A DNA stretch of 64,000 bases from an uncultured Paracoccaceae bacterium. GTDB taxonomy: Bacteria > Pseudomonadota > Alphaproteobacteria > Rhodobacterales > Rhodobacteraceae. A model generated the notes under the pieces. The model was not told where the DNA came from. It did not search any database and worked only from the letters and a program-made list of their open reading frames with translations. The DNA is taken from assembly GCA_947503935.1 (NCBI GenBank), contig CANNFR010000002.1:434001-498000 (forward strand). Reading direction: 5' to 3'. How positions within the stretch are numbered: position 1 is the first letter of the stretch; every line of letters starts with the position of its first letter. Shown here piece by piece: positions 14,564-15,631 of this stretch. Both the position numbers and the translations under genes were made by a program.

Positions 14564-14977
14564 ATGCATCGCCGCGATTTTCTTGCTCTGACAGCCGCTG
14601 TGACCGTCGCCTTGCCTCTGAAGGCGCGGGCCGAAACGCTCAGCTATACCCCGGGCCTGGTCGAGAAACACCTGGCGGCGGGGGAAACCGTTTTCCTCGA
14701 CTTCAAGGCCAGCTGGTGTTCCACCTGTGCAGCGCAAGAGCGTGTGCTCAACGCCCTGAAATCCGAAAATCCCGACTACGAGCAAGCGATCACCTTTATC
14801 GATGTCGATTGGGACACGTATAAGAACGATGCTCTGACCGAGGCCTTGAACATCCCGCGCCGGTCGACCCTTGTGGTCCTGAAGGGCGATGAGGAATTGG
14901 GCCGTATCGTGGCCGGCACATCCCGCGATCAGATCAAGGCGTTGATGGATACGGCTTTGGGGGCTGCAACTGCCTGA
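14564..14977 (+). CDS. Periplasmic thioredoxin-like protein
   Basis: The protein has 137 residues. Residues 1-23 form a signal peptide ending in KARA. The mature part is a thioredoxin fold with the active site WCSTC in FKASWCSTCAAQE, as in the C-terminal domain of DsbD. Its start, 15 bases after the ccdA stop with AAAGGAG upstream, implies an operon in which CcdA keeps this protein reduced. Targets such as apo-cytochromes are inferred only. Confidence 0.9.
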   Translation: MHRRDFLALTAAVTVALPLKARAETLSYTPGLVEKHLAAGETVFLDFKASWCSTCAAQERVLNALKSENPDYEQAITFIDVDWDTYKNDALTEALNIPRRSTLVVLKGDEELGRIVAGTSRDQIKALMDTALGAATA

Positions 14978-14984
14978 GCAGTGC

Positions 14985-15094
14985 GATTTTTCTGCGAAAA
15001 ATCAGGGAAGCGCCAAGCCTTCTGGAATAACTATTCTGCGAAAAGTCAGATCTTTCGCAGAAAGATCGAATAGCGAATTCTTCGCAGAAGAATT
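14985..15094. repeat. Array of four related hairpins with CTGCG/CGCAG loops
   Basis: Three perfect 7-bp hairpins lie at 14985-15003 (GATTTTT-CTGCG-AAAAATC), 15049-15067 (GATCTTT-CGCAG-AAAGATC) and 15076-15094 (AATTCTT-CGCAG-AAGAATT). A fourth, imperfect one (15029-15047) has the loop CTGCG. The loops of units 1-2 and 3-4 are reverse complements, so the units come in opposite orientations. CTATTC (15031) and GAATAG (15068) also pair around units 2-3. The array fills the gap between convergent thioredoxin and idi genes and probably ends transcription from both sides. Confidence 0.8.
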
Positions 15095-15100
15095 GGTTTT

Positions 15101-15631
15101 TCAAGCGCGCATCAGCGCACCGAAAATCTGGTCCTTATGTTTGTCCAGATAGATCCGCAGCCACGGAGTGAAACGCTCAGGGTGTCGGGCAACTTCGGCT
15201 GTCAGATCGTAGAAATCGACCCACCTTGTATCCATCACCTCATCGGGGTTCGGCGTGATCCTCAGCGATTTCCCAGCTGTCGCGACAAAGATGTCGACCA
15301 CCTCATGCTCGACAAGGCCTCCACCGACATCGGCGCGATATTCGACCTGATCCCGAAACACGGGTGACAGGCCGCTGATCCCCAATTCCTCCTGCAAGCG
15401 TCGCACAGCACAATCCTGCGGCGCCTCATTCCAGTCAGGATGCGTGCAGCAGGTATTCGCCCACAGACCGGGTGTGTGATACTTGCCCATCGCGCGCTGC
15501 TGGATCAGCACCTCGTCACCGCGCAGAACAAAGACCGACACCGCCTTATGGCGAAGGCCGCGCTGATGCACCTCCAGCTTGTCCATCGGGGTCAATGTGC
15601 CGTTCACCCAGGCCGGGATCAAAGTGCTCAT
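15101..15631 (-). CDS. idi: Isopentenyl-diphosphate delta-isomerase, type 1
   Basis: This 176-residue Nudix-fold enzyme interconverts IPP and DMAPP in the cytoplasm. The catalytic cysteine lies in NTCCTHPDW and the catalytic glutamate in the RRLQEELGI Nudix-like stretch. It is the usual size of bacterial type 1 Idi. Its ATG overlaps the bchP stop by four bases (ATGA), so it is co-translated with bchP and supplies precursor for the phytyl tail and carotenoids. Confidence 0.96.
   Translation of the reverse strand: MSTLIPAWVNGTLTPMDKLEVHQRGLRHKAVSVFVLRGDEVLIQQRAMGKYHTPGLWANTCCTHPDWNEAPQDCAVRRLQEELGISGLSPVFRDQVEYRADVGGGLVEHEVVDIFVATAGKSLRITPNPDEVMDTRWVDFYDLTAEVARHPERFTPWLRIYLDKHKDQIFGALMRA

Follow-up and report, generated by a model that had tools for sequence, protein, structure and literature searches.

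What purpose might be served by four small hairpins that share a loop, differ in their stems and fill the space between two convergent genes? The array that raises this question is located at positions 14985–15094 of the window (the whole 64,000-nucleotide stretch of DNA that was analysed), and it is separated by 7 nt from the stop codon of the upstream gene and by 6 nt from that of idi. The upstream gene (14564–14977, forward strand; from the open reading frame (ORF) list and the gene call) encodes a 137 amino acid thioredoxin-like protein that is assigned to the SoxW/DsbE type by its WCSTC motif. The opposing gene, idi (15101–15631, reverse strand; from the ORF list), encodes the 176 amino acid isopentenyl-diphosphate isomerase, and the array lies on its stop side. 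Both genes were named by inspection.

The hairpin array in the window

Hairpin H1 (14985–15003, forward strand) has the form GATTTTTC-TGC-GAAAAATC, wherein an 8-bp stem is closed by a TGC loop, and it scores 37.6 bits with a covariance model. H2 (15029–15047, forward strand; AACTATTC-TGC-GAAAAGTC) has the same loop and forms only six of its eight pairs (24.8 bits, E 0.002). H3 (15049–15067, reverse strand; GATCTTTC-GCA-GAAAGATC, 34.0 bits) follows H2 after a single nucleotide, a spacing that is also present in other arrays, and H4 (15076–15094, reverse strand; AATTCTTC-GCA-GAAGAATT, 34.9 bits) is located 8 nt past H3. Both of these carry a GCA loop, and H1, H3 and H4 are perfect 8-bp stems with 3-base loops. 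All four copies of the 9-base core TTCTGCGAA in the window reside within the array, as compared with 0.49 expected, and four copies were reached in only 1 of 100 shuffles of the window.

A preliminary description of this DNA had reported three perfect hairpins and one imperfect one at these coordinates, and they are indeed present. It had given each a 7-bp stem and a 5-base loop. The stems are real, but they are 8 bp long and enclose 3-base loops, as the outer C and G of the presumed loop also pair. A larger cruciform, proposed to form by pairing of CTATTC with GAATAG, is rejected. This pairing exists, but it is at chance level, since 62% of shuffles of the stretch contain at least one 6-nt complementary pair. 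No extra pairing of this type was seen in another array.

Copies and array architecture in the genome of origin

The genome from which the window derives (G000; 4,475,435 bases, or 4.48 Mb, in 27 contigs) contains 152 copies of the core, as compared with 34 for its reversed control, and they are strongly clustered. This number implies about 60 clusters per genome. The suggestion that the unit is a palindromic element amplified in this lineage is thus borne out, and the absence of other copies, which had been named as grounds for discarding it, is not what was found.

Arrays are composed of two to four hairpins. The typical array has four in the order + + − −, which reads the same from both sides, and + strictly precedes − in 31 of the 32 arrays that hold both orientations. 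A core followed after 22–52 nt by its reverse core occurs 30 times per strand in G000 and never in the control; because this pattern is its own reverse complement, 30 per strand corresponds to about 30 places. The typical spacing is 8–11 nt between H1 and H2 and again between H3 and H4, with 1 nt (or about 13 nt) separating H2 from H3, and the inner hairpins occasionally exhibit mismatches or 4-base loops. A common form in G000 is AATTC+, GATCC+, GATTT−, GAATY−, found in either orientation, and that in the genome G091 is AAGTC+, GATCT+, GYGTT−, GGATT−. Two G091 arrays (L251:2199–2317 and L255:1964–2107) carry one stem four times in the order + − + −, resembling a duplicated + − pair. In G000, arrays seem to avoid repeating a stem (8 identical pairs versus 13.8 expected, P 0.04), but this tendency is reversed in G091, which has tandem duplicates, and it is not claimed.

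Covariation and loop identity

The unit comprises exactly 19 nt, with an 8-bp stem, a 3-base TGC/GCA loop and the consensus C-RAWYYTTC-TGC-GAARRWTY-NG. Among 108 clustered G000 cores, picked solely for having a second core nearby and blind to pairing, the five positions outside the core pair at frequencies of 0.99, 0.97, 1.00, 0.98 and 0.95, and the sixth at 0.26. The stem is assigned a length of exactly 8 bp because pairing is high at the five outer positions and then drops. Across the same five positions, the 28 solitary cores of this genome pair at only 0.18–0.43. There are 23 fully paired outer-stem types in G000, and wobbles are rare (two T-G and four A-C among 540 cells). The base on the 5′ side of the unit is C in 99 of the 108 cases, and the second base on the 3′ side is mainly G.

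For 68 distinct units drawn from G000, G091 and G077, 97.6% of cells are paired. Double-change cells number 108, as compared with 30.7 ± 3.9 after shuffling, and the covariation score is 0.550 versus 0.182 for shuffled units and 0.03–0.15 for slid controls. These comparisons of sequence support the proposal, already made in the preliminary description on the basis of compensatory change, that the structure of the stems rather than their sequence is kept. Conservation without covariation, which would have spoken against it, is not observed, and further compensated changes are found at the orthologous ftsB-pdhA site discussed below. Such claims for palindromic repeats usually derive from few, related copies. 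Here, a single genome provides more than 100 units that combine a constant loop, a fixed length, variable paired stems and saturated spacers.

The loop is GCA or its complement TGC in 280 of 309 perfect hairpins closed by TTC/GAA, a share that is biased upward since the loci were fetched by that core; the excess of the core (152 versus 34) is nevertheless genome-wide. Hairpins of the same stem type with a GGC or GAC loop in place of TGC are present at L044:3373–3424, L006:1468, L019:1525 and L026:1525, and these possibly represent a second loop class or decay. The sequences d(cGNNAg) and d(cGNABg) are stable DNA loop motifs. All 11 four-base loops fit them, as compared with 21% of random four-base loops, but single insertions into GCA would mostly fit as well. 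As support for a DNA loop rule, these variants are only suggestive.

Arrays are located behind stop codons

Of the 42 clusters in the fetched G000 stretches, 20 are flanked by convergent genes, 18 by tandem genes and 3 by divergent genes, and the remaining one lies within a called ORF. A stop codon faces 38 of 41 clusters at a median distance of about 10 nt, where gene context was derived from fetched stretches with a simple ORF caller, such that a few distances (e.g. −21 or several hundred nucleotides) are miscalled. Relative to G000 gaps of 90 nt or longer taken from unbiased stretches, convergent positions are enriched (20/41 versus 25/178, P 5e-6), as had been anticipated for an intergenic element favouring convergent genes, and divergent positions are depleted (3/41 versus 49/178, P 0.004). 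At loci from other Rhodobacteraceae, which mostly hold solitary hairpins a few nucleotides past stop codons, 30 of 60 are convergent (P 7e-8) and none of 60 is divergent (P 1e-7), a comparison that is approximate because the baseline comes from G000 alone.

Within tandem gaps, arrays sit next to the upstream stop codon and are not scattered along the gap (median relative positions 0.14 and 0.09; KS P 6e-6 and 1e-6), and placement is tight, at 2–16 nt past stops. The adjacent genes are, by inspection, ordinary housekeeping genes (dnaJ, tkt, purF, ispG, metK, uvrA and others), and the element is present at just a few percent of gene ends. One perfect solitary hairpin (L032:14666–14684) resides within a called 1.5-kb ORF, the sole such case in G000, and this ORF call may be wrong.

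An array shared between two genera

There are about 16 comparable gene ends that are orthologous between G000 and G077 or G091, and an array is common only to the ftsB-pdhA gap. Thus, no particular gene requires an array. A second shared site, at L254/L240, was considered and rejected because the two arrays are located on different sides of the gene.

In the ftsB-pdhA gap, G000 and G091 each hold an array about 70 nt past ftsB in identical orientation, and their alignment spans all four hairpins with order and places kept. In three of the four stems, one or more positions differ on both arms (AATTC/AAGTC, GATTT/GCGTT and GACTT/GGATT, given as G000/G091), and the fourth (b) shows incipient decay in G000. 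Two genera carry independent compensating changes at one site. Among six like-oriented arrays within G091, matched stems are 81% identical and spacers are 28% identical, as compared with 31% expected from composition. With spacers at the random level, these arrays are not fresh copies, even though their stems remain paired.

The gap measures 283 and 295 nt with the array and mostly 92–167 nt without it, with several longer examples, among genera in which ftsB is adjacent. No array is present upstream of pdhA in the other 27 genera examined. From these sequences, the array may be ancestral and often lost, may have been gained twice, or may have been transferred. All 29 Rhodobacteraceae genera examined also carry a separate palindrome resembling AATAGTTTAACGCTAAACTATT shortly 5′ of the pdhA start (L320–L348; e.g. 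near position 199450 of G000:C6), which probably serves the pyruvate dehydrogenase operon as a conserved operator.

Distribution and the case for mobility

The strict 19-base pattern has matches in 38 of 295 Rhodobacteraceae genera and none in the remaining 257. Most are in G000 (91), G077 (64), G216 (32), G070 (26), G091 (24) and G274 (20), with few elsewhere. The pattern itself makes no demand for pairing, and nearly all of the matches listed are perfect palindromes. Carriers among the matches listed include Gemmobacter, Tabrizicola, Cypionkella, Rhodobacter, Pseudorhodobacter, Roseovarius, Loktanella, Rhodovulum, Mameliella and Salipiger. Stem sets differ from genus to genus. In a sample of 385 genomes from the class, just three matches fall outside Rhodobacteraceae, and these are non-palindromic and attributable to chance. 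A phage origin is rejected, with matches in only 6 and 8 viral contigs. In Poribacteria, the identical 19-mer GATTTTTCTGCGAAAAATC occurs within a different, fixed dispersed repeat (AGTAC...TTTCAGTTATCAGTT) at loci L100, L103–L106, L119, L121, L128, L130, L133, L139, L160, L161, L164 and L165, an identity that may reflect shared descent, convergence or coincidence. Relatives of idi are found in 207 of the 295 genera with up to 78% identity, and no array lies behind idi in the best 29 of them.

Such patchiness, with 91 strict matches in G000 and a complete lack of them in 257 genera, together with the possession of a distinct stem set by each genus, might be produced by a non-autonomous, REP/BIME-like mobile repeat. 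Its transposase would be one that is not recognised, its insertions would be tolerated past stop codons where they do least harm, and its hairpin would be kept for the transposase. One asymmetric four-hairpin unit does occur in either orientation in G091 and G000, and gaps that are about 90–170 nt in most relatives measure 283–295 nt with the array. However, RAYT transposases (Y1_Tnp, PF01797, IS200/IS605 type) are absent from G000, G077 and G091 in a search that detected controls such as E. coli, and RAYT is therefore rejected as the driver in these genomes. In addition, no two arrays share spacers, which implies that there are no recent copies, the hairpins are still about 98% paired, which is unexpected of decaying insertions, and placement is confined to 2–16 nt past stops rather than extending anywhere in non-promoter gaps. 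We consider a mobile repeat maintained in this manner to be possible but doubtful. The earlier suggestion of a mobile unit is only partly sustained, by the patchy distribution and by empty sites in neighbouring genera, but not by the arrays themselves, no two of which are alike. A mobile origin is likely, and the element probably arrived or spread long ago as a non-autonomous repeat, whereas recent mobility is not supported.

Possible functions

The fixed length, the invariant core, the stems that are free to vary as long as they pair and the saturated spacers suggest that the cell uses the hairpin itself rather than a linear sequence. Position behind stop codons points to a role at the 3′ ends of genes, in both directions where genes converge, so that an array would act on transcript ends from both sides. 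In addition, G-T wobbles are nearly absent, which suggests that each strand must be able to pair well, as would be required if both strands were transcribed or if the hairpin functioned as DNA. Most simply, the arrays might mark or protect transcript ends, by blocking exonucleases or by factor-assisted termination, and might keep converging transcription apart. We therefore read the arrays, with conviction and doubt in about equal measure, as a REP/BIME-like gene-end element of Rhodobacteraceae that is kept for its hairpin shape and that probably operates in two directions at transcript ends by a mechanism that we infer. As judged from sequence features, the choice between this two-way function and a mobile element kept for its transposase is about evenly balanced.

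Several observations do not favour the gene-end model. Folded as isolated RNA, the window array favours an extended H1-H3 duplex, leaving H4 on its own, over four hairpins (z about −3 for each strand); in the DNA centroid fold, H1 remains a local hairpin. Moreover, the stems are A+T-rich and lack a U-tract, avoidance of divergent gaps is equally expected of harmless junk, and the element is missing from 257 of 295 genera and from all but a few percent of gene ends.

Palindromes of fixed length with few wobbles, at both dispersed and clustered sites, could also be bound as double-stranded DNA by a host nucleoid or boundary protein, wherein symmetry would reflect a protein dimer and not a hairpin. 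However, linear reading of this kind needs a fixed half-site, and the five outer bases vary freely yet remain complementary; the TGC centre and the flanking C...NG are asymmetric, and array order is fixed. This makes binding by a dimer improbable. Even less credible is neutral upkeep through quasi-palindrome correction, wherein the replication machinery would switch templates between the arms and so copy mutations across the hairpin with no selection involved. Pairing would then be perfect, changes would come in pairs and wobble intermediates would be few, but this process leaves unexplained the sharp end of the stem at 8 bp (with the sixth position at background), the invariant core, the position-specific stems and the fixed place past stops. 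A more speculative reading, which we regard as a long shot, is that the arrays are chromosomal DNA mini-cruciforms that would extrude C-GNA-G hairpins; a host protein would recognise the shape of these hairpins and mark gene ends from either direction. If true, the mini-cruciform would be a structure-coded boundary whose stems are free to drift while they pair.

The element points to a putative partner that reads the C-GCA-G hairpin. Whether it is functional, and in RNA or DNA form, is testable in culturable Rhodobacteraceae, among which Gemmobacter, Tabrizicola, Rhodobacter, Pseudorhodobacter and Roseovarius carry hairpins.

Comparison with known systems

Searches of Rfam 15 returned no match above the gathering score, and the best sub-threshold hits are eukaryotic microRNAs that reflect chance. 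In the literature, the core sequence was found only in primers and unrelated matches, and no paper on such Rhodobacteraceae repeats was found. The arrays do not resemble intrinsic terminators, as the stems are mostly A+T and no T-run follows the hairpins. A search for a hairpin plus T-run identified 4 of 20 gaps with arrays and 5 of 41 without, and simple canonical termination is rejected because this is no clear difference.

The uptake sequences of Neisseria and Pasteurellaceae have a short constant core and often form inverted pairs behind genes, at terminators. By comparison, the present element has about 150 copies rather than thousands, and its conserved part is a core joined to a freely varying paired stem. 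Rhizobium intergenic mosaic elements (RIME and ABC elements) are alphaproteobacterial intergenic elements of about 100 bp made of several palindromes. By description, their palindromes are larger and typically conserved in sequence.

Promoter hairpins for the phage N4 virion RNA polymerase have a C:G closing pair and a loop with a 5′ G and a 3′ A, and they extrude at physiological supercoiling (PMC4496689). Similarly, the element has a short stem with variable and conserved bases and, on one strand, a 3-base C-GCA-G loop, so that its sequence has the C:G closing pair and G-N-A triloop of the N4 type, with extrusion being predicted. Unlike the N4 hairpins, it is chromosomal, is located in arrays at gene 3′ ends and lacks any sign of promoters or an N4-type polymerase.

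The closest resemblance is to REP, REPIN and BIME sequences, which are short multicopy palindromes, often opposed and clustered, located past coding regions, between convergent or tandem genes and close to stop codons (PMC3733652, PMC2817692, PMC3116915). In Stenotrophomonas REPs, palindromy is preserved despite sequence change (PMC2817692). The element likewise consists of many short palindromes that are clustered, opposed and near stop codons, and its dispersed intergenic arrays in both orientations form a BIME-like mosaic in the broad sense. It departs from REPs and REPINs in its unit of only 19 nt, whose 8-bp stem is perfect and whose loop is constant, in its lack of a RAYT in the genome and in having no GTAG or CGTC tag at the hairpin foot among the 108 clustered G000 cores. 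Furthermore, stem sequence is not conserved within the genome, where the 23 paired types are partly position-specific, and whereas G-T pairs are frequent in REPs (PMC3733652), the element has nearly none. On these sequence comparisons, the element is, as tested, not a member of the RAYT-associated REPs but a variant of the REP/BIME kind of dispersed palindrome.
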